From a virus, in the IMG/VR virus record IMGVR_UViG_3300045135_001473, positions 1-22,825 of that record: 22,825 nt of DNA; one strand, given 5' to 3'. The translations under genes and the position numbers were made by a program. Below the pieces are notes generated by a model. It saw only the letters and a list, made by a program, of their open reading frames with translations. It was not told where the DNA came from and did not search any database. Of this stretch, positions 3,717 to 19,538 are shown piece after piece. Numbering within the stretch: position 1 is the stretch's first letter; each line of letters starts with the position of its first letter.

Positions 3717-5561
3717 TTATCGCCACGAATTAATAAAATTCTTCCCTGCTTTAGGCACAAAAGCCTGTTTAGCAGGATTGTTTTTGTCTTCTACAGGCTT
3801 CGCAGCCTTGCCATTAGCCATTTTGTCAGCCAATGTATTAATATCCACGTTGAGTATACCACAAGCTGCAATAGAATACACCATGCAATCAAGTGCTTCA
3901 TTTCGTGTCCGTGTTTTGATGTATGCTCTCTTCTTAAACCCTTTATGGAAGCGTGTTACAGCCTTTTCTGCCGTTAACTGCTTAAAGTACTCATCATCTA
4001 GTGTTTCATTGAAGTGAACATAGCCACCACCTTGCTCATTCTTGCTTAGTCTGGCGAACACTAAATCCTTAACTGTATCTACGCCAACAGGGTATAGCGC
4101 ACACTTACCAATATTGTTCTTACTCGGTCTGCCAACGATAGGTTTACCGTCACCACCTATACCTTTTATGGCAAATACGCGTCTACTAGCGTGTTTCTTA
4201 CAGAATTGGTACACAGAGTTAGTAAAGTGACCACCAGAATCCACACAAGTTGCCGTAATCTGTATAGGGCTACCATCTTCCTTCTGATACTTTGCAAAGA
4301 TACGACTCTCTAACGCACCCCACAACTGAGGTGTAGATGGGTCGCCATACATAGTCTCATGGTTTATTACGTACATTTCCTCATCACGACCATACCCTAT
4401 AACAGATATCTCCAGTCGGTTATCCTGTACGTCAGCACCAGCCGTCATAAATACGACATCGTTAGGGATGTTTATCATCTCCTCTCTGCGCTTGGCTAGT
4501 TCCATCTCGTCAATCTGTTGCCCTTGGTCTTCCCATGACTCGCCCAAGTAAGTATTCGTCCATACTCGTAATTGCTCGGGGTTAGACTTGGCGCTAAGAA
4601 AATCTCTTACGCCATCAGCCAATGGTGTCCATGGTGAGTATAGTGCTGATATGTGAAACCCTGCTATGCCGTTAAATGGCTCATCAGCTATCCACTTACC
4701 ATTACGTATAGACCATCTTCTATCACTGTCCGACCATTCCACACCGCAATGCTCGCAAATGTAACAAGCTGCGTCAGGGTCATCATTATACCACTTAACG
4801 TTCTTCCATCTCATTACTTGCGGTTCTTTGCAGTGTTTGCACGGTATGTGATACTTGCGCTTATCTGACTTCTCGTATGATTCTTCTATACGGCTTGCAC
4901 CCTTGTTAGTGGGCGTACTTACCATAATAATCTTACGATTCCAGAACGTACTGGTACGCTTAACCGCTAGTTGTATTGGGTCACCCTCTTCGCCAGCAGA
5001 AGTAGGATATCTATCCACCTCATCACAAAGTAGTACTCTGATAGGACGAGATGCCAGACCAGATGGGCTATTTGCACCGACCATCGTTAGTGCGCCACCA
5101 GCGAATAACTTATGTAGTGTCGTGTTACCAGAGTCACGAGAGCGTGGGTCTTTGACTTTATCTCGTAAGCATGGGGTAGAGCGTAATAGACCAGCAGTTA
5201 CACGGTCTTTACTGAATGCTTGTGCCATGTCCAGTGTGGGCTGTAGTACTAATATCGGGCTAGGGTCATTATCGATATGGTAGCCAATGATGTTAAGTAT
5301 CGCCTCAGACTTACCTAACTGCGCTCCAGCCATAACAACGACCTGTCTATTCTCAGGCTCGCTACACGCATCCATGATGCCACGCTGATATTCGGCACGG
5401 CTAGTATACCAACGACCTGCCTCGGCACTACTTTGCGAGTCTAGTCGTCTTTTTTGGTCTGCCCACTCGCTTACTGTTAGCTTTTTTGGTGGTTTTAGCG
5501 TCCACATTGCTTTCATCAGTTCGCTCGACAGACGCCTTTGTTGGATCAGTCTTTGGGTCAT
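3717..5561 (-). CDS. terL: Terminase large subunit (GpA family)
   Basis: This is the packaging motor and nuclease, 614 residues. Residues 78-85 (AGAQLGKS) are the Walker A motif and 176-181 (VLLCDE) the Walker B motif with its catalytic Glu. Two CxxC pairs (CKHC and CYICEHC) form a zinc-binding insert common in GpA-type terminases. The nuclease domain begins at AGADVQDNRLE, with DSGGH further on, and the C-terminus contains RNEALDCMVYS. The first 134 nt overlap terS. If the ATG at 5516 (MKAMW) is used instead, the overlap shrinks to 89 nt; family members usually begin close to the LTVSEWAD segment. A readable ribosome site (AAGAG) precedes 5561, so the longer start is kept. Confidence 0.95.
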   Translation of the reverse strand: MTQRLIQQRRLSSELMKAMWTLKPPKKLTVSEWADQKRRLDSQSSAEAGRWYTSRAEYQRGIMDACSEPENRQVVVMAGAQLGKSEAILNIIGYHIDNDPSPILVLQPTLDMAQAFSKDRVTAGLLRSTPCLRDKVKDPRSRDSGNTTLHKLFAGGALTMVGANSPSGLASRPIRVLLCDEVDRYPTSAGEEGDPIQLAVKRTSTFWNRKIIMVSTPTNKGASRIEESYEKSDKRKYHIPCKHCKEPQVMRWKNVKWYNDDPDAACYICEHCGVEWSDSDRRWSIRNGKWIADEPFNGIAGFHISALYSPWTPLADGVRDFLSAKSNPEQLRVWTNTYLGESWEDQGQQIDEMELAKRREEMINIPNDVVFMTAGADVQDNRLEISVIGYGRDEEMYVINHETMYGDPSTPQLWGALESRIFAKYQKEDGSPIQITATCVDSGGHFTNSVYQFCKKHASRRVFAIKGIGGDGKPIVGRPSKNNIGKCALYPVGVDTVKDLVFARLSKNEQGGGYVHFNETLDDEYFKQLTAEKAVTRFHKGFKKRAYIKTRTRNEALDCMVYSIAACGILNVDINTLADKMANGKAAKPVEDKNNPAKQAFVPKAGKNFINSWR

Positions 5562-5850
5562 AGTTTGCCAGCTCTTCTAGTGCTTCGTTGATTAAATCTT
5601 CTAGGATATCTTTGCATATCGCAGAGTCGTGTTCCGTGCTTACTACTGGTGCTGCCTTAGTTGGCACTGATAGTAGCTTTGCTTTCATGGCTGTTAGCAC
5701 ATCATTCCACGCATCGACAACATCCTCAGTGACTACGAGTGTACCATGAACTCTCTCTAGCTCTAATTCTGCCAGTTCTGCCTCAGCATTCATCTTTCTC
5801 GTTCTAGCAGCATCGTAATCAGAACCTAGTTTAACTCCACCTGTACTCAT
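5428..5850 (-). CDS. terS: Terminase small subunit (Nu1-like core with C-terminal AT-hook-like motif)
   Basis: This 140-residue protein sits immediately upstream of TerL. Residues 8-100 (SDYDAARTRKMNAEAELAELELER, then WNDVLTAMKAKLLSVPTKAAP) match the helical oligomerisation region of Nu1-type small terminases. The N-terminal winged-helix DNA-binding domain of lambda Nu1 is absent. The tail contains KRVGRPKK, an AT-hook-like GRP motif in a Lys/Arg-rich setting, which might supply DNA binding. The ATG at 5850 is preceded by CGGAGAAG and lies downstream of a good promoter at 5878-5906. It is the first gene of the head operon. The family assignment rests on the core and the position; the AT-hook role is inferred. 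Confidence 0.82.
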   Translation of the reverse strand: MSTGGVKLGSDYDAARTRKMNAEAELAELELERVHGTLVVTEDVVDAWNDVLTAMKAKLLSVPTKAAPVVSTEHDSAICKDILEDLINEALEELANYDPKTDPTKASVERTDESNVDAKTTKKANSKRVGRPKKTTRLAK

Positions 5851-5906: not shown

Positions 5907-6331
5907 CTATATAGACCTGTGGATAACTCGCACCCCTTTTATCCACAATGGTTAGGATGATTATCCTAATAATTAGGTTAGTTTAGCAAAATTCTGTCGC
6001 TAGAAAGACTTCGCACTCGGCAAGCACCCATGACATATGGCTCTGGGAGTACCTTTTGCAAAAGTTATCCACAGAGTTATCCACAGAAAGCCTTGGGCAA
6101 TGTATAACTTTTATTTTGCTTGTGGATAAGTCTACGATATCTGTGGATAAGTATATAAGTTATCCACATGCACCTAGAACGCGCTGAATCGCATTGTATG
6201 ACGCGCAAATGTGCGCTGATATATTCGTATAGGTTTTATTATTTCATGCGCTTAGAGTGCGCTTAAGATTGTAAGTTTATTGTGTGATGGTGTGATGGTG
6301 TGATGGTGTGATGGTGTGATTAATTGAGGGC
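5907..6331. other. Non-coding origin-like region with DnaA boxes and short repeats
   Basis: I see no convincing gene in this stretch. It holds seven perfect TTATCCACA boxes at 5918-5926 (-), 5939-5947 (+), 6065-6073 (+), 6077-6085 (+), 6121-6129 (-), 6142-6150 (-) and 6160-6168 (+). It also holds a TTAGGAT-GATT-ATCCTAA inverted repeat at 5952-5969, two TGCGCTTA copies 11 bp apart at 6247-6254 and 6258-6265, and an 8-bp tandem repeat at 6283-6320. Clustered perfect DnaA boxes next to AT-rich DNA are typical of DnaA-dependent origins. The site lies between the early and head operons. Origin function is inferred; a cos site could also lie here but I cannot recognise one. Confidence 0.6.
6283..6320. 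repeat. Tandem 8-bp repeat TGTGATGG, about 4.75 copies
   Basis: Four full copies (6283-6314) and a partial fifth are identical. The array lies between the DnaA-box cluster and the terminator. It could be a protein-binding array or simple slippage. Confidence 0.9.
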
Positions 6332-8084: not shown

Positions 8085-8153
8085 TTTGTTCACCTCTCTA
8101 ATAAGTTCAAGCGCATATTAAAACAAGCAACAAAAACGTTGTAATAACTTTTC

Positions 8154-8169
8154 GTTATATGATTATAAG
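8154..8169. promoter_or_regulatory. Putative operator GTTATA-N4-TATAAG (site 2)
   Basis: One mismatch from the perfect inverted repeat at 5885-5900. It overlaps a minus-strand TATAAT hexamer upstream of the gene starting at 8084. Confidence 0.45.
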
Positions 8170-8196
8170 TTTATAGAATATGGGGATAACTTTTTG

Positions 8197-8212
8197 GTTA
8201 TATGCTTATAAC
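8197..8212. promoter_or_regulatory. Putative operator GTTATA-N4-TATAAC (site 3)
   Basis: Perfect arms, extended by one further base pair (GGTTATA/TATAACC). Same spacing as the site within the head-operon promoter. Confidence 0.5.
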
Positions 8213-8264
8213 CGAATGGAATAACGATTTTGAGATATGCTTTTCGGGCGCACCACATAGGCAA

Positions 8265-8435
8265 CCGTGGGATAGTAAAGTAACCGTGGGATAGTAAATT
8301 GCGCCCCCATTACCCCCCAATAGCTAACCGTGGGATAGTAAATTGCAACCGTGGGATAGTAAACCCCTTAAAGTTTTTCACTTTATGAAATATTTTTAGG
8401 GGTAGCCGTGGGATAGTAAACCGTGGGATAGTAAA
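8265..8435. repeat. Direct-repeat array of CCGTGGGATAGTAAA (six copies)
   Basis: Six identical 15-bp copies in the same orientation at 8265-8279, 8284-8298, 8328-8342, 8349-8363, 8406-8420 and 8421-8435. The last two abut, and the array ends 1 nt from the stop codon of the gene at 8437-9126. Copies 2 and 3 share a longer 22-bp unit (TAA before, TTGC after). The intervening DNA includes C-rich and AT-rich tracts and no gene. Possible iterons, operators or recombination sites. Confidence 0.95.
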
Positions 8436-8436
8436 G

Positions 8437-9126
8437 CTAAAGCTTCATTGTCCTTAATGCTAATCTTGTAGACGCTGCTATTTGTCTATGTATCCTTGCA
8501 GTAAATGTATTGGCAGCTATCTTACCTGATGGGAACTTCATCTTGTCTATACGATACTTTCTATGCATCGATACGTGCATTAATAACTTGGTGCTTACTG
8601 GCTTAGACTTTTTCTTGCCTACTTTCTTAAATACTTTACGTTCCCATAGACCTAAATATCTATCTCCAGACTTGTGCTTAGGTATACCAACGAAAAACCT
8701 ACTTTGACCACCTCTAGTTTTTAGAGCTAGTTTTTGCTTAACGTAAGACTCTTTTCCTTTACCCTTGCCATAGTTCTTCATGCGTCCTGATGACGTCTGC
8801 GCTGGCTTCATTGGTGACACTAACCTCTTACTGCCAGACTTAGGCTCGATTCTAGCACCATCCAGTACACCTTCCATGTAACCGTGCGTATTCATGTTGT
8901 AGAACAACTGGACGTTTAAGTCTTTCTTCTTAGAGCGTGTGAACCTTGGTGAACTTCTAGTGTAAGCGTTAGCCTTATCTAGATACCTTGGTATTTCTTT
9001 CACTTGTTCCTTGCGAATAGCAACGATTGTCTTGTTCATAGCGTGAGACACGATAAAAGGCGCTTGCTTTCCGTAAGCGTCAAGCTTACTGGCTAACTTC
9101 TTTGTATCTATGTTTATGCTTATCAT
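8437..9126 (-). CDS. Basic phage protein resembling tail-completion/minor tail protein Z
   Basis: A 229-residue, very basic protein. The N-terminal third (SINIDTKKLASKLDAYGKQ, then VSHAMNKTIVAIRKEQVKEI) resembles GpZ-type tail completion proteins, where an N-terminal helical segment precedes a Lys/Arg-rich body. The middle is rich in GKGKGK and KKGKK-like tracts. The ATG at 9126 follows AGAGGCGCAC; an upstream ATG at 9162 exists only because repeat copy 8 has CAT in place of CAC on the coding strand. A structural gene is unexpected here in the early region, away from the head and tail genes. It is bracketed by tandem 15-bp repeats on both sides, as if it were a movable cassette. The function call is tentative. 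Confidence 0.55.
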   Translation of the reverse strand: MISINIDTKKLASKLDAYGKQAPFIVSHAMNKTIVAIRKEQVKEIPRYLDKANAYTRSSPRFTRSKKKDLNVQLFYNMNTHGYMEGVLDGARIEPKSGSKRLVSPMKPAQTSSGRMKNYGKGKGKESYVKQKLALKTRGGQSRFFVGIPKHKSGDRYLGLWERKVFKKVGKKKSKPVSTKLLMHVSMHRKYRIDKMKFPSGKIAANTFTARIHRQIAASTRLALRTMKL

Positions 9127-9143
9127 GTGCGCCTCTAAGATAA

Positions 9144-9173
9144 CCGTGGGATAGTAAACCATGGGATAGTAAA
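9144..9173. repeat. Tandem pair of the 15-bp repeat upstream of the 8437-9126 gene
   Basis: Two abutting copies at 9144-9158 (CCGTGGGATAGTAAA) and 9159-9173 (CCATGGGATAGTAAA, one change). Orientation matches the six copies at 8265-8435, so the gene lies between two tandem pairs. Confidence 0.95.
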
Positions 9174-9194
9174 TATTTTACCATAAATCACGGA

Positions 9195-9647: not shown

Positions 9648-11116
9648 GCTACTTTCCTCTTAGCGTACTTAATATTCAAATGCTTTAAATAGCTCTTGGT
9701 CTCATCTGACACATAGTATGCCTGATACGGTTGTATCCGATTAGGGAATACACCAAATCGCTCCTTATACTTATTAGCTGCCCAACCTTTCTTATAGCCT
9801 TTGTGCTTACCGTGTAGTAGTAGCTCACTAAAGAACTTGGCTTTCTGCTCAGTAGAAACCACCTTGTTTGCGTCACGCTTGATCTTAACCAACTCTTCGC
9901 CATCGGTTTGTAGCTGCTCAGTAATTGGTATCTCATACCCACACTTACAACGTAACCCCATCATCTCTGCGCCACATACAGGGCATGGCTTAACCTTGGC
10001 TTCTTTCTTCTCCTTAGTTAATGACTTTTCGTTATACTTTTTCTCGCCATCATCCAGCTCATCAGGCACTACCGCCTCAGCAAAGCCCCACTTACGACAA
10101 TTGCCAGCATGGTCTAAGTAGACTGCTCTATCTTTACCCTCTGCTGTACGCATAATACGACCTGCTATCTGCACGTAGTTAGTCAGGTTAGTTGGCTTGC
10201 AATCTATGATGCATGACGTAGTAGGCGAGTCGTAACCAGTGGATAGTAATTGACTGCACGACAGTATCTGGAACTCACCGTTATCGTGTGCATCAAACAA
10301 CTCTTGTCGCATATCGTCCTTCATATATCCGTCAATGTGATAAGCACTAACACCGTGAGAATTAAATAGCTCGACTAGGTATTTACTATGCTTAATACTG
10401 GGAGAAAACGCGATTGTTTGCATACCCTCAGCGTGTTTAAACCAATTCTTGACTATATCCCCAGATAACCTGTCTTTATCCTCTTCTGTGCGTCGAGAAA
10501 GCTCTTTTTGGTCATAGTCATACATGCCACCGGCTGTTTTTACTCTCTTGATACCCTTAGTGTCAATCTTAGCACCGCCATAGTAATCGACAGGCGTGAG
10601 ATAACCCATATCAACTAGCTCTAATGGAGTAATTGGTACTATGAGGTCATTGTAGTATTTGCCCATACCGCGGCTATATGGTGTTGCCGATAAGCCTATA
10701 ATTGGAATCTTGGTCCAACGCTCCATCTTGTCCATTAGCCACTTATACATTATGTGACACTCATCCACTAAGATAAGGTCAAAATCCATCTGACCTCGAT
10801 TCCTCATTCGTGATAATGTCTGTACTGAGCATATCTGTATAGGTGCATTCCAGTTAGTTCTTATGTGCTGACCTTGCATAACACCAACTTGTAACCCTAG
10901 TTCATCAAACTTCTCCATAGCTTGCTGTACTAACTTGATACGGTCACATACAAATGCTACACGCTTACCTTTCTTAACTGCGCTCATAGCGATGAATGCA
11001 GCCAATATCGTTTTGCCGAATGAGCATGGTGCTGCTAACACCACACGGTTCATGCCCTTCTTGAGGCTATGACGAATCATGTCGATAGCCTTTTCCTGAT
11101 GAGGTCTTAATTGCAT
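9644..11116 (-). CDS. Superfamily 2 DEAD/DEAH-box helicase
   Basis: A 490-residue ATP-dependent nucleic-acid translocase. Residues 3-7 (LRPHQ) form the Q-motif-like start, 29-36 (APCSFGKT) Walker A, 118-121 (DECH) motif II and 143-145 (SAT) motif III. The second RecA domain contains IAFSPSIKHS, a STGYDSP segment and QIAGRIMR (motif VI). Near residue 380 a zinc ribbon appears (CPVCGAEMMGLRCKCG). This architecture is the phage replication/repair helicase type similar to UvsW/RadD-like proteins, not a DnaB replicative helicase. The start ATG at 11116 has a run AGAGGGGGG upstream and overlaps the methyltransferase stop by 10 nt. Confidence 0.92.
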   Translation of the reverse strand: MQLRPHQEKAIDMIRHSLKKGMNRVVLAAPCSFGKTILAAFIAMSAVKKGKRVAFVCDRIKLVQQAMEKFDELGLQVGVMQGQHIRTNWNAPIQICSVQTLSRMRNRGQMDFDLILVDECHIMYKWLMDKMERWTKIPIIGLSATPYSRGMGKYYNDLIVPITPLELVDMGYLTPVDYYGGAKIDTKGIKRVKTAGGMYDYDQKELSRRTEEDKDRLSGDIVKNWFKHAEGMQTIAFSPSIKHSKYLVELFNSHGVSAYHIDGYMKDDMRQELFDAHDNGEFQILSCSQLLSTGYDSPTTSCIIDCKPTNLTNYVQIAGRIMRTAEGKDRAVYLDHAGNCRKWGFAEAVVPDELDDGEKKYNEKSLTKEKKEAKVKPCPVCGAEMMGLRCKCGYEIPITEQLQTDGEELVKIKRDANKVVSTEQKAKFFSELLLHGKHKGYKKGWAANKYKERFGVFPNRIQPYQAYYVSDETKSYLKHLNIKYAKRKVA

Positions 11117-11973
11117 ATACCCCCCTCTAACAGATGCTTAATTACATCTACAGTCCACCCATTACCTAAAACTTTCTGACATTGATTGTAGCTTAGTATA
11201 TCTGTGTAGCCATCTGGAACGGTTTGACATCTCTCAAGCTCTCTGCGAGTTAGGTATCTACAGAAATCTTCATGTTGTATAAGACCGCTATTAGGTTGAC
11301 GGTCTTGCTTTACTGTTAGGCAATATGCTTTATCGCTATTTGTTATATTGTAACAGCCACCAGATTTGCCACCTGTGCCATTACCGTCTGCCCACATTTT
11401 GCGTCTACTTGGTGTGTCATTAACCTTCGCTTCTGCAAGCATAATTGGATCGGTATCTTTTATATCTTGAAATGATATGCCTTTATCTATAGGTAAGTCT
11501 TGCTCCCAATTAAACCAATACCATCTCGGTCTTTTCTGTGCGCTTAAAACTTCACTGTTAATAAATACACCTTCTACACCAGTAAATTCATTTATAACCT
11601 CTAAGTTTTCTTTCTTCATCCTTACGTTTTCTAGCAAAAACTTAACGCTTGGATTTACATCTTTAACCTTGTTAAGTATCTCAATAAACGTAAAAAACAA
11701 CACAGAGCGTTGGTCGTTAAAAGCTAACTCTTTACCTATTCGTGAAAACCCTTGGCATGGGCTACCTGCCAAAACTAAGTCAAAGTTCCAATCGATATCC
11801 CACTCTTTCCATTTAGTTACATCCCCTAGACGTATGATGTCAGGGTAATTATGGTTGCTAACATTAATAGCGTGTTTATCTATCTCACTACTGTAATACT
11901 CACAATCAACGCCCATTTTATCCAGTGCAATGCGCCCACAACTCATGCCGTCAAACAAACTTAATACTCTCAT
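11107..11973 (-). CDS. C5-cytosine DNA methyltransferase
   Basis: A 288-residue enzyme transferring methyl from S-adenosylmethionine to cytosine C5. Visible motifs: I (LFDGMSCG, residues 6-13), IV (GSPCQG with catalytic Cys73), VI (ENV, 115-117), VIII (QKRPR, 146-150), IX (RRELERCQT) and X (GNGWTVDVI near the end). The target recognition domain between VIII and IX is short (about 80 residues), as in stand-alone phage enzymes. The ATG overlaps the stop of the PAPS-reductase-like gene at 11973. No cognate restriction enzyme can be named. It could protect phage DNA from host restriction; the site specificity is not readable from the sequence. Confidence 0.93.
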   Translation of the reverse strand: MRVLSLFDGMSCGRIALDKMGVDCEYYSSEIDKHAINVSNHNYPDIIRLGDVTKWKEWDIDWNFDLVLAGSPCQGFSRIGKELAFNDQRSVLFFTFIEILNKVKDVNPSVKFLLENVRMKKENLEVINEFTGVEGVFINSEVLSAQKRPRWYWFNWEQDLPIDKGISFQDIKDTDPIMLAEAKVNDTPSRRKMWADGNGTGGKSGGCYNITNSDKAYCLTVKQDRQPNSGLIQHEDFCRYLTRRELERCQTVPDGYTDILSYNQCQKVLGNGWTVDVIKHLLEGGICN

Positions 11974-12945: not shown

Positions 12946-13021
12946 ATTTTATCTCCCGTTGGTTGAGACTAAATAATAAAACAAAATTATGGATCAGAAT
13001 AAATAACGTTTTGTAATATGC
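12946..13021 (-). promoter_or_regulatory. Putative promoter/operator region upstream of the 12945 gene
   Basis: On the minus strand a candidate operator (GTAATA-TGCT-TATAAG, 13013-13028) precedes TTACAA and, about 19 nt later, CATAAT, which could be -35 and -10. The block CTTATAAGCATATTAC followed by AAAACGTTAT closely matches the two blocks in front of the 8084 gene. The promoter hexamers are weak; the shared block is the better evidence. Confidence 0.4.
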
Positions 13022-13028
13022 TTATAAG
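13013..13028. promoter_or_regulatory. Putative operator, imperfect copy (site 4)
   Basis: GTAATA-TGCT-TATAAG, two mismatches from the perfect GTTATA-N4-TATAAC sites but embedded in the same longer conserved block as the sites near 8154-8212. Confidence 0.4.
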
Positions 13029-13534
13029 TTTATGATATATGAGGTAAGTTCTTTGATTGGGTGTAGGTTTTTGTATTGCAGGACGCCACAATCTGCCTTG
13101 TGGTTAAAACCTTCTTTATCTGTTTGACCATTCTTGTAGTAAGTGCATTTTTGCCAATATTCTTTCTTAGTAATAAACCCTAAATACTCTATTTCATTTT
13201 TCTTCTTATTGTAACTAGCAAATACATAAAGAAAGCAGTTCATATTTTTTTGAGATGCGCCAACATGTGCATTGTAATTCATGCTTGCATCTACATTTCT
13301 ATCTTTTGTTTTTATGTCAATAGTTACACCCTCAACAACAAAGTCATAGTCATATACTTTGTCACCAACATGACTATACTTTAGGCTATGACCTTTTAAT
13401 CCAGCAATAAAGCATAGCTCTCCTATATTACCTACGTACTGCCCAGTTCCATTACTTAGTATGGTTGTTTTATTAAATGAATCATTAGAACATTTTTCTT
13501 TAGCTTCCAATAGAATTTCATTACTTACTTCCAT
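13022..13534 (-). CDS. PD-(D/E)XK nuclease-like phage protein
   Basis: A 170-residue protein. NIGELCFIAGL (Glu39) followed by YDYDFVVEG (Asp62/Asp64) and VTIDIKTKDR (Asp73, Lys75) gives the order E...D...D-x-K of PD-(D/E)XK restriction-like nucleases. The C-terminal half reads as beta strands with FLYVFASY and YLGFITKKEYW. Many phage and restriction proteins share this fold. The ATG at 13534 has ribosome site TCTGGAGA. Upstream lies the ~500-nt structured non-coding region, so its mRNA may have an exceptionally long leader. Substrate and activity are not shown; it might be a repair, packaging or restriction-type enzyme. Confidence 0.62.
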   Translation of the reverse strand: MEVSNEILLEAKEKCSNDSFNKTTILSNGTGQYVGNIGELCFIAGLKGHSLKYSHVGDKVYDYDFVVEGVTIDIKTKDRNVDASMNYNAHVGASQKNMNCFLYVFASYNKKKNEIEYLGFITKKEYWQKCTYYKNGQTDKEGFNHKADCGVLQYKNLHPIKELTSYIINL

Positions 13535-14060: not shown

Positions 14061-14160
14061 GTGTCTGATGTATACTGGTTTTAGTGGGCGCATTTAATAT
14101 GCAAGGATGCGTTCATGCTAGTAGATGTTAATTAAAGCCCCTTGATTGGGGCTTATTTAT
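14048..14160 (+). repeat. Direct repeat copy A: candidate promoter, ~75-nt small RNA and terminator
   Basis: This copy shares with 15100-15213 a 49-bp core differing at one position (from 14083), an upstream TTGGGC plus T run, and a terminal GCCCC-N6-GGGGC hairpin followed by TTATTTAT. On the plus strand TTGGGC (14048-14053) and TATACT (14071-14076) are 17 bp apart and could be a promoter. The transcript would start near 14084 and end at the hairpin (14137-14152). On the minus strand the same hairpin could end the pentapeptide gene transcript. The T-rich tail conserved in both copies favours the plus strand. Confidence 0.5.
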
Positions 14161-14176: not shown

Positions 14177-14629
14177 TCATAATTCAATCTCCAGAGCTTT
14201 AACTTGCATCAATAAAAATTCTTCATATAGACTGTTTTCACCGTACTTTTTTATGATTGCTTTAATAGCTTCATCTGTATCACCCCAAAAACAACCTAGT
14301 TTGTGCATAACACAGTTGGCGTGTTTAACTGAATAGCATGTGCGCTTCTCTCCTTGTGGCGCTTGCCACTGCATTATTCCCATAGCACCGCTTAAATTAA
14401 CACCGCTTAAATCAGCACCCCTTAAATTCGCACCATTTAAATTAGCACCGCTTAAATCAGCACATCTTAAAATAGCATCTCTTAAATCAGTATATATTAA
14501 ATTAGCATCTCTTAAATTAGCACCGCTTAAATCAGCGTCGTATAAATCAGCACCTCTTAAATCAGAAACGCTTAATTTAGCATATTTTAAATAAGCACCT
14601 TTTTTTATCTCGTAGCCATTAACTATCAT
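14177..14629 (-). CDS. Pentapeptide-repeat protein
   Basis: In 150 residues, positions about 13-82 consist of A(D/N)LXX pentapeptide repeats (for example [35 protein letters not shown]), which fold into a right-handed quadrilateral beta-helix. The C-terminal 60 residues are not repeats ([20 protein letters not shown]). Known pentapeptide proteins such as Qnr and MfpA mimic DNA and bind gyrase; many phage ones are uncharacterised. The ATG at 14629 is preceded by GGAAGATTGAATT. The codon repeats create long open frames on the opposite strand that are not genes. The gene lies between the two direct-repeat copies. A gyrase-protective role is possible but not shown. Confidence 0.85.
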
Positions 14630-15099: not shown

Positions 15100-15213
15100 T
15101 TGGGCTTTTTTATATCTATGTGTATGCTTATTATCAGTGGGCGCATTTAATATGCAAGGATGCGTTCATGCTGGTAGATGTTAAGTATAGCCCCTTAACT
15201 GGGGCTTATTTAT
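15100..15213 (+). repeat. Direct repeat copy B: candidate promoter, ~75-nt small RNA and terminator
   Basis: Second copy of the element at 14048-14160, offset 1052 bp. The core 15136-15172 is identical over 37 bp to 14083-14119. TTGGGC (15100-15105) and TATGCT (15123-15128) again lie 17 bp apart. The hairpin GCCCC-TTAACT-GGGGC (15190-15205) has a different loop from copy A but the same stem and the same TTATTTAT tail. It ends 3 nt before the stop codon of the convergent gene at 15217. Confidence 0.5.
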
Positions 15214-18154: not shown

Positions 18155-18391
18155 CTAGTTACCTTTAATATATGCAACACCAGTTTCATCTAGTGCATCT
18201 TTTACTTTCTTCCAGTTTGGTCTTCCTCTGCCTAGTAGCCAGTTTTTAAGGACAAAAGGTGACACCCCGCACATACATGCGTAAAACTCAAATCGGTCAG
18301 ATTTATTATCACTATATTCAGAGTCAAGATAGTCATTATCTTCATCCATCCAACTCATTAGATAGTTTTTCATATCGTCTAAATTTTTCAT
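18155..18391 (-). CDS. Hypothetical 78-residue protein with possible C-terminal HTH
   Basis: An acidic N-terminal half (MKNLDDMKNYLMSWMDEDND) is followed by a possible helix-turn-helix (CMCGVSPFVLKNWLLGRGRPN, then WKKVKDALDETG). The ATG at 18391 follows a TGGAGAAAAAT ribosome site; a GTG at 18403 is less likely. It overlaps the exonuclease gene by 4 nt. No family is recognised. Confidence 0.6.
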   Translation of the reverse strand: MKNLDDMKNYLMSWMDEDNDYLDSEYSDNKSDRFEFYACMCGVSPFVLKNWLLGRGRPNWKKVKDALDETGVAYIKGN

Positions 18392-18993
18392 ATTTTTCTC
18401 CACTTATCAGCTTCTAAAGTAATTGTTTTGCAAGCTGCTTCGACTATGCCAGCAAGCTTGTTAATGTATTCCTCGTCACGCTTTACACGCACGATAAGAA
18501 TTTCTAGCTCAGGGTGAAACGATACAAAATCCCACCACTCTCGCTCTGTTATCCAAAGGCAACCTTGTATCTGTGGGTAGTATTTCATATCCACTGTGCC
18601 TCGACGTAAGTTTGCGATATGGTTTTCAGCTTTAGGGCATTTTATCTCAATGCCACCATCACATCCAACTAAACCATCTGGGCTACACCCTGCGTCAAAG
18701 TCATCATGTAGCATTAAGCCCATCTCTTTAACTTCGACTTCGCGTATAAACTCATACATGGCTTTTGCTTGTGGCTCTAAATCATTGCCACGTTGCATGT
18801 CATCGCTTTTGAATATTGCGGTACGTTCGCCAGTAAGCTTTTCTGCTACTAACTGATTAATGTAAGCATCAGCTTGCGTACTAGGCTTACCAGTAGGGCT
18901 TAAGAACTTAGCAAAGTTACTAGCAGTAGGTACGCCTAATCTAGCAGCTAACCACTCGTCCGTACCTTGCTCTACATCTACATGCCTACTCAT
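18388..18993 (-). CDS. YqaJ/lambda exonuclease-type recombination nuclease
   Basis: A 201-residue protein of the YqaJ viral recombinase family. Visible catalytic pattern: RGNDLEPQA (Glu73), CSPDGLVG (Asp106), IEIKCP (Glu116, Lys118) and YYPQIQGCLW. These nucleases resect double-stranded DNA 5'-to-3' and leave 3' single-stranded tails for the partner annealing protein. The length is normal for the family. It overlaps its partner SSAP gene by 4 nt. Together they form a phage recombination module used for repair and genome concatemer processing. Confidence 0.93.
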   Translation of the reverse strand: MSRHVDVEQGTDEWLAARLGVPTASNFAKFLSPTGKPSTQADAYINQLVAEKLTGERTAIFKSDDMQRGNDLEPQAKAMYEFIREVEVKEMGLMLHDDFDAGCSPDGLVGCDGGIEIKCPKAENHIANLRRGTVDMKYYPQIQGCLWITEREWWDFVSFHPELEILIVRVKRDEEYINKLAGIVEAACKTITLEADKWRKI

Positions 18994-19538
18994 TTCTTTC
19001 TGCCTAGTAGACCAATAGCTTTCTTAGCTTGAGCTTTAGTTAGCTCTTCAACATGGTTAACGTTAAAGGCTTTGCAAAACTTTTCTACATTAGATCCAGT
19101 TTCCTCGATAAGACGATTAATCTCATCAATGACATCTTTATCTATTGTCTCACTCATAACAGCAGGTAAATCTTCACCACTGTATATGTATAAGCCTAGA
19201 CCCAACATACTCAATGCCTTTACGTAGCAACGTTGACGTGCCGTGTTAATGTGCATAGATGATGGATTAGATATTGGCTTATTACGAAAATCTAACACAG
19301 GCAAAAACATGTGTCGTGTAAGACTTTCTTCGCCTTCTGTTACTGTCACATAACAAGTCACCATCATAGTGCCATCAGGATATGTGGTTTCCTCAAACGT
19401 ATGCGATGAGTTAGGAAAGTTAGACATCATTATGGAATGCGCCCAACTCCAAGACAGATACGTGAACTGCCCTTTCTTTTCAGTGTGGTCACTAACGTCT
19501 ATTACAGACAAAGTATCCCACAGTTTCTTTGCTAACAT
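18990..19538 (-). CDS. Single-strand annealing protein (DUF1071/Sak-type)
   Basis: A 182-residue protein. HTEKKGQFTYLSWSWAHSIMM is the characteristic N-terminal block of DUF1071 annealing proteins; AFLP-like MHINTARQRCYVKALSMLGLG lies in the middle. The family anneals complementary single strands in partnership with an exonuclease. The C-terminus (CKAFNVNHVEELTKAQAKKAI) is charged and helical. The start ATG at 19538 has ribosome site GAGGAG. It is the first gene of the 19538-16800 recombination operon, behind the promoter at 19567-19594. Confidence 0.85.
   Translation of the reverse strand: MLAKKLWDTLSVIDVSDHTEKKGQFTYLSWSWAHSIMMSNFPNSSHTFEETTYPDGTMMVTCYVTVTEGEESLTRHMFLPVLDFRNKPISNPSSMHINTARQRCYVKALSMLGLGLYIYSGEDLPAVMSETIDKDVIDEINRLIEETGSNVEKFCKAFNVNHVEELTKAQAKKAIGLLGRKK

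Follow-up and report, generated by a model that had tools for sequence, protein, structure and literature searches.

Mobile regulatory cassettes of T4-type phages were reportedly described by Arbiol et al. in 2010; the element in these cassettes is said to be an early promoter plus a stem-loop. Short regulatory sites of another kind are found in the cluster A mycobacteriophages, such as L5 and TipsytheTRex. According to an excerpt of the source, these temperate phages carry more than 20 operator or stoperator sites genome-wide, which are 13-mers bound by a monomeric repressor (PMC9283540). Finally, the CRP phage group is described in an excerpt of another source as probably strictly lytic, because an integrase is almost always absent (PMC12629253). 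The word 'repeat' does not occur in the main text of that paper.

The window analysed here is a stretch of viral DNA of 22,825 nucleotides (positions 1 to 22,825 of IMG/VR record IMGVR_UViG_3300045135_001473), in which one gene is flanked by an array of short direct repeats. The repeat is a real conserved element, common to many mostly uncultured phages, and its direct job is most likely the control of gene reading.

The repeat array and the gene it flanks

The gene at 8437-9126 is flanked by eight copies of CCGTGGGATAGTAAA, seven of them exact and one with a single mismatch, all on the + strand, and dinucleotide shuffles of the window contain a mean of 0.35 copies, with a maximum of 2. The gene is on the minus strand; thus, six copies are downstream of it, at 8265-8279 (the outermost), 8284-8298, 8328-8342, 8349-8363, 8406-8420, and 8421-8435 (1 bp from the stop codon), while two are upstream of its start, at 9144-9158 and 9159-9173. 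This arrangement and its single orientation are as originally predicted, as is the abutment of the nearest copies on each side, which are exactly contiguous (8406/8421 and 9144/9159). The outer upstream copy, CCATGGGATAGTAAA, carries a G to A change in the core that does create an ATG, as had been noted. Because of this ATG, the mechanical ORF is lengthened into the outer copy (8437-9162), against which relatives support a start at 9126. That the window holds no further copies is also borne out, since a both-strand scan allowing up to three mismatches finds just these eight.

Other signals are found in or next to the array, all given here on the minus strand. A -10-like hexamer, TAAAAT, which is a weak match to the consensus, is at 9175-9180, just upstream of the mismatched copy in the gene's direction. 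An imperfect inverted repeat, CCCCTwAA ... TTTAAGGGG, which was read by eye rather than folded, spans 8363-8403 within the array, and inverted repeats were seen by eye within the array in some other loci too. Beyond the array, an AT-rich, lineage-specific imperfect tandem repeat with a period of about 21 occupies 8142-8213. A 57-nt piece at 13002-13058 is 75% like 8143-8199 of that repeat, which suggests a putative second regulatory site. Two separate repeats were also noticed elsewhere in the window. A 15-bp coding tandem repeat of about 14 copies (14368-14618) lies inside the ORF at 14177-14629, which, from the pattern read by eye, looks like a pentapeptide-repeat protein. Two 78-nt copies (14083-14160 and 15136-15213) are 94% identical, and both end in a terminator-like GCCCC...GGGGC stem.

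The flanked gene encodes a protein of 229 aa, of which residues 1-227 match phrog_1924, 'minor tail protein', with an E value of 1.3e-14, in agreement with its prediction as a tail-type structural protein. It is hereafter called Z, as a Z-like minor tail or HK97-gp10-type gene. An AlphaFold model of Z has a pLDDT of 81; a structure search of the PDB with this model gave no match below an E value of 0.5, and its neighbours in BFVD include minor tail and HK97-gp10 proteins. With the exception of two close relatives, the Z proteins of repeat-bearing phages are 15-40% identical to that of the window, and across phages with such divergent Z proteins the repeat is very strongly conserved.

It had been suggested that this gene is out of place in the early region, a claim that stands only in part. 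In MD8, R4C, phi2LM21, LESphi2, phiNP, and CRP-406, the phrog_1924 family is found at the genome end or adjoining the terminase genes. For instance, in the annotated tail cluster of CRP-406, minor tail U comes straight after head-tail joining, while the minor tail protein is found beyond terS. Thus, the usual address of Z in named phages is one step before the terminase genes, and its upstream position is no oddity of the window. The Z region of the window has no match in the named phages by tblastn or blastn.

Distribution and placement of the repeat among related phages

In relatives retrieved with a relaxed pattern from IMG/VR, the 15-mer is refined to a conserved core of 11 bp, which reads CTATCCCAYGG on the gene's strand (CCRTGGGATAG on the other), with TAAA as one common spacer. 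The logo of 333 unique instances in the gene's direction is (T/G)(A/G)CTATCCCAYGGNTA. The spacing between copies peaks at 11 and 21 and otherwise has no clear helical phase, the sets for logo and spacing being de-duplicated by sequence and not by phage. In some phages, the 11-mer is repeated head to tail at exactly 11 bp in ten or more copies. A literature search with the 11-mer sequence gave no phage paper about the repeat among the matches listed.

When IMG/VR was scanned for pairs of the 15-mer no more than 30 bp apart, 28 stretches were retrieved, and 27 records were examined. In all 27, the 15-mer (at most one mismatch) is on one strand only and, even in records of 30-44 kb, it is nearly always restricted to the Z locus, with one distant copy in G020. 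A phrog_1924 gene is beside the repeat in 26 of these records, and the remaining record is cut off about 220 bp past the array. The relaxed viral pattern gave 54 newly fetched loci, with Z recognised by profile in 42; the 12 without Z were split by eye into eight with different repeats and four that are cut or the same contig. A scan of the genomes of 84,980 species produced no match to the exact 15-mer pair and 61 stretches with the relaxed pair, none of which has Z by profile; the 17 that were inspected look like unrelated repeats. IMG/VR was also searched with the protein only, without using the motif. Repeats are present in 20 of the 21 members of a first Z subgroup (the remaining one is cut inside the gene) and in all seven of a second. 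In a third, among the best 80 of 142 relatives, they are present in 6/6 at an identity of at least 49% and in 0/74 at 41% or less. Neither condition that had been proposed as a refutation holds: the repeat is linked to the gene, and relatives with it and without it fall into clearly separate sets.

Direct repeats at both ends of a gene could mark an autonomous mobile element or a moron carrying Z. This explanation is now largely refuted and highly improbable, as Z is present in 26/27 repeat-bearing records, many loci have other genes between the copies, and no transposase or integrase match exceeded the curated cut-off among the window ORFs tested. The more specific proposal of a regulated moron is likewise not supported for Z, given that the one other record is cut and that Z is also beside cos or terS in phages without the repeat.

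On a tree of Z made with a quick method, which leaves out rows L281 and L268, the 11-mer is found in two separate parts. Two changes are needed to place the repeat on this tree, but the starred branches force only one. The same motif stands beside Z proteins of both tree regions and, consequently, the recogniser of the repeat is unlikely to be Z itself, which is disfavoured as the binder. Z proteins are equally basic without the repeat (median pI of 10.6 in repeat-free phages against 10.7).

A second type of repeat occurs at the same place in other phages. Roseobacter phage CRP-811 (PV211010), which was found via a related TerL, has no 11-mer array at Z and instead carries TGARCTTTTCCATCGGWGGGG, with two copies just past the Z stop and two just before the Z start. 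This second, related repeat type, with the motif TTTTCCATCGG, is in the same places around Z in CRP-811 and in 12 of 15 further IMG/VR stretches with the paired motif, always in one orientation. Two others, L269 and L271, are cut, and the one genuine exception among the 15 is L277, where the array (5052-5137, reverse complement) has no recognisable Z gene adjacent to it. Thus, the second motif is not strictly tied to Z. The cores of the two repeat types, aligned by eye, agree at 7/11 positions. As a cultured roseophage, CRP-811 offers a laboratory handle.

The placement of the 11-mer is strict. Within 700 bp of Z, the 387 core copies in 67 loci (a set that holds some contigs twice) are all on the gene's strand, the opposite strand and the interior of Z being free of copies. 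Downstream, the first copy is at most 15 bp past the Z stop codon in 42/65 loci, and a copy is within 60 bp of the Z start in 16/67. Copies are also found at further junctions of the same region, the extreme case being repeat-T-ATG...TAA-repeat, and stand singly in short gaps between genes. Such a strict strand, together with positions that follow stop codons directly or coincide with ribosome-binding sites, could point to an element that works in RNA, where a transcribed CUAUCCCAYGG would be bound in the mRNA, for instance, as a Rho-loading site or a translation-control site after stops or before starts. The C-rich units of group 1, spaced at 11 nt, and the Shine-Dalgarno-like GGAGG supplied by some copies would agree with this. 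Nevertheless, the second motif family is G-rich downstream, unlike a Rho site, and no hairpin read by eye is conserved from copy to copy, so that an RNA-level role is improbable.

In the genome, the arrays are located at the boundary between the replication operon, of which the Z-like gene is the last, and an accessory module that precedes cos. In repeat-bearing loci, this module separates Z from terL: the distance to terL is 3.2-4.7 kb in 13 loci, measured from the Z start, and 2.4-2.6 kb in three more, measured from the Z stop. In contrast, terL begins 485-1283 bp after Z in 51/58 loci without the 11-mer; in the remaining ones, it is on the other side (three loci) or at 1.9-2.6 kb (four loci). 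Lineage-specific second tandem arrays are found just beyond the Z array in L281, L283, L275, L279, L272, L023, L021, and L012, examples being a 16-bp ATCAACAGTTATCCTG in 13-15 copies and a 12-bp CCGACGCCCCGA in 10-17 copies. In L023, an array similar to the second tandem array recurs near cos.

The array of the window is about 2.4 kb upstream of terS, which is at 5428-5850 on the minus strand. The terS product matches only positions 85-196 of phrog_57 and lacks the N-terminal helix-turn-helix part; this part is also absent from terS of L053, L083, L094, and L023 and is present in that of L019. A cos-like block adjoins terS (5989-6053, minus strand), and seven perfect DnaA boxes (TTATCCACA, both strands) are at 5918-6168, within 250 bp flanking this block. 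The cluster of boxes beside cos is a probable replication origin or DnaA-dependent control region.

A packaging site (cos or pac) recognised by terminase might be expected in the array, as Z of the named phages is at the genome end, beside cos or the terminase genes. Such a role was rejected and has very little probability left, because the cos-like block, compared by eye, is conserved directly upstream of terS in 13/13 loci reaching terL, kilobases from the array. Moreover, terS with and without the N-terminal helix-turn-helix co-occurs with the same repeat.

The array could also be iteron DNA of a replication origin, adjoining an AT-rich, lineage-specific tandem repeat region, as the original prediction of an iteron-type initiator site implied. 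The copy number of the array varies, replication genes adjoin it, and lineage-specific tandem arrays are 130-500 bp beyond Z in many loci. However, GC-skew analysis of the window and CRP-811 gave no skew switch at the repeats; CRP-811 has a significant overall pattern with its minimum at 9.0 kb, not at Z. Single copies in short intergenic gaps do not suit an origin either, and the cos-like block with its seven DnaA boxes, about 2.3 kb away, argues against an origin as well as a packaging role for the array. An origin at the array is, therefore, unlikely, and the initiator proposal is not upheld.

Gene exchange at the repeats

Comparison of close relatives indicates that genes change at these junctions. 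L073 and L087, which share 94% identity in Z, are distinguished by 285 bp located exactly at the first repeat after Z, where L087 has one 90-aa gene and one repeat and L073 has a single repeat. The 90-aa gene matches only phrog_4256/4919, families of unknown function. L083 and L094 share 88-100% identity over most of the stretch that begins about 1.1 kb upstream and runs to the repeat preceding Z, with one segment in between missing; identity is about 60% across Z and 86-98% again for about 500 bp beyond the array. Z is here a 55%-identical allele swapped between near-identical flanks, and four-fold sites differ at 30/48 in Z compared with 83/534 in terL, helicase, and primase together. Identity between the window and L009 is 96-100% for most of the 900 bp upstream and 88% in Z, and beyond the array the two cannot be aligned; their four-fold sites differ at 28/81 in Z compared with 38/228 in helicase and primase (p=0.0014). 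Finally, Z of the L012 group falls among the Z proteins of repeat-free phages, yet its repeats match those of the main group, which would fit a Z that was swapped while the repeats stayed.

A gene nearby appears to have been swapped as well. For the C5-methyltransferase of the window (11107-11973), L009 offers no near equivalent, the most similar ORF found being 27% identical, although the adjoining helicase and primase are shared at 99-100% identity.

In 96 locus pairs, 453 ends of homology were recorded, of which 36 are within 15 bp of a repeat; 9.3 would be expected at random positions and 27.1 at gene ends (p=0.058), and a change in array length alone can break alignments and produce such ends. 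Overall, then, repeats exceed other gene ends as breakpoint sites by a narrow margin only. In addition, a methyltransferase insertion (L064/L062) and a 69-aa gene (L073/L087) are at ribosome-binding or start-codon junctions, not at repeats. The gene between repeats in L017 is a PDDEXK protein by Pfam, and its counterpart in L024 gave no match. The original idea of a mobile cassette with repeat ends thus holds insofar as the 90-aa gene is present or absent exactly at repeats and Z alleles are swapped between repeat-bearing junctions. It does not hold in that no locus with an 11-mer array and without Z was seen, cut contigs apart, and in that genes also come and go at non-repeat junctions.

The main rival to a regulatory role follows from these exchanges. 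The selected function of the repeat may be that of a recombination linker, kept identical for cassette exchange by short-homology annealing and comparable with the boundary sequences of other mosaic phages. The clean presence or absence of a cassette at a single repeat, the allele swap of Z, and the position of the L012 group all favour it. So do the encoded recombination genes, Sak, a single-strand annealing protein (18990-19538, minus strand), and YqaJ, an exonuclease that is a possible partner in short-homology recombination (18388-18993, minus strand). Nevertheless, this explanation is rather doubtful: the excess of breakpoints at repeats is marginal, other insertions avoid them, and head-to-tail arrays of ten or more copies are not explained by a linker role alone. 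For gene-by-gene mosaicism among phages that are mostly uncultured, the repeat supplies a definite signal at junctions, one that can be tested and for which natural before/after pairs exist.

Proposed regulatory role and comparison with known systems

The preferred reading is that the array is a putative one-directional operator or roadblock-type site that doubles as an exchange junction. The repeats would be asymmetric 11-bp sites at gene junctions, reading CTATCCCAYGG in the direction of transcription, and a sequence-specific factor, probably encoded by the phage, would bind them and control transcription. This factor may act at promoters, where a -10 box is beside or between copies, while in short intergenic gaps the repeats may serve as a one-way roadblock or terminator that insulates the replication/Z operon from the next module. 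Since one junction after another carries this short sequence, the repeats could also provide micro-homology for the annealing recombination of the phage, and genes between copies would then behave like cassettes.

A -10-like box beside or between copies was found, partly by eye, in the window, L009, L033, L012, L015, L023, L030, L066, CRP-811, and L278. By a pre-set promoter score, 5/21 reach 5 compared with 10% in controls, which is not a clear enrichment. In the 17 loci that reach at least 8.4 kb upstream, Z is the only family present in all, and no universal regulator was found; helix-turn-helix proteins are encoded, none of them universal across these loci. For these two reasons, the promoter score and the lack of a universal regulator, the regulatory reading is given a probability of roughly 0.45. 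If a binding factor is found, the repeats would represent a system of sites that insulate transcription, in phages with nearest cultured relatives that are reported to be probably lytic.

A broader and more speculative possibility, to be taken only tentatively, is that both repeat types belong to one family of junction elements with a single reading direction and diverging types (CTATCCCAYGG and TTTTCCATCGG). Such a family might serve as a platform for cassettes at the border of the replication operon with the accessory module, where one dedicated factor would insulate transcription and the repeat would guide the exchange of single genes, including a virion gene, by the annealing protein.

Among described phages, Pseudomonas phage MD8, LESphi2, Dinoroseobacter phage R4C, and Roseobacter phage CRP-406 have the same protein family at the genome end, next to the terminase. 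In these phages, there is neither such a repeat nor an accessory module between Z and terS, whereas the window phage has both. CRP-811 is closer in layout, since it has a Z gene with tandem direct repeats just before the start and just after the stop, although its repeat sequence is that of the second motif and not the CTATCCCAYGG of the window. The T4-type cassettes, as they are said to be organised, are alike in that a recurrent short junction element is tied to gene shuffling between related phages. Nevertheless, their element is reportedly a promoter plus a stem-loop, while the one described here is an array of 11-bp repeats in which no stem-loop is conserved.

The operators and stoperators of the cluster A mycobacteriophages resemble the repeats of the window in being, in the excerpt of their description, short asymmetric sites with one orientation relative to transcription (PMC9283540). 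In the same excerpt, these sites are placed in promoter regions and short intergenic spaces, and the repeats described here are in short intergenic gaps too (PMC9283540). By contrast, the 11-mers form arrays at one locus, while the cluster A 13-mers are spread genome-wide and have a known repressor (PMC9283540). The two also differ in lifestyle as excerpted, as the nearest named relatives of the window phage are reported to be probably strictly lytic (PMC12629253), whereas the cluster A mycobacteriophages are temperate (PMC9283540).
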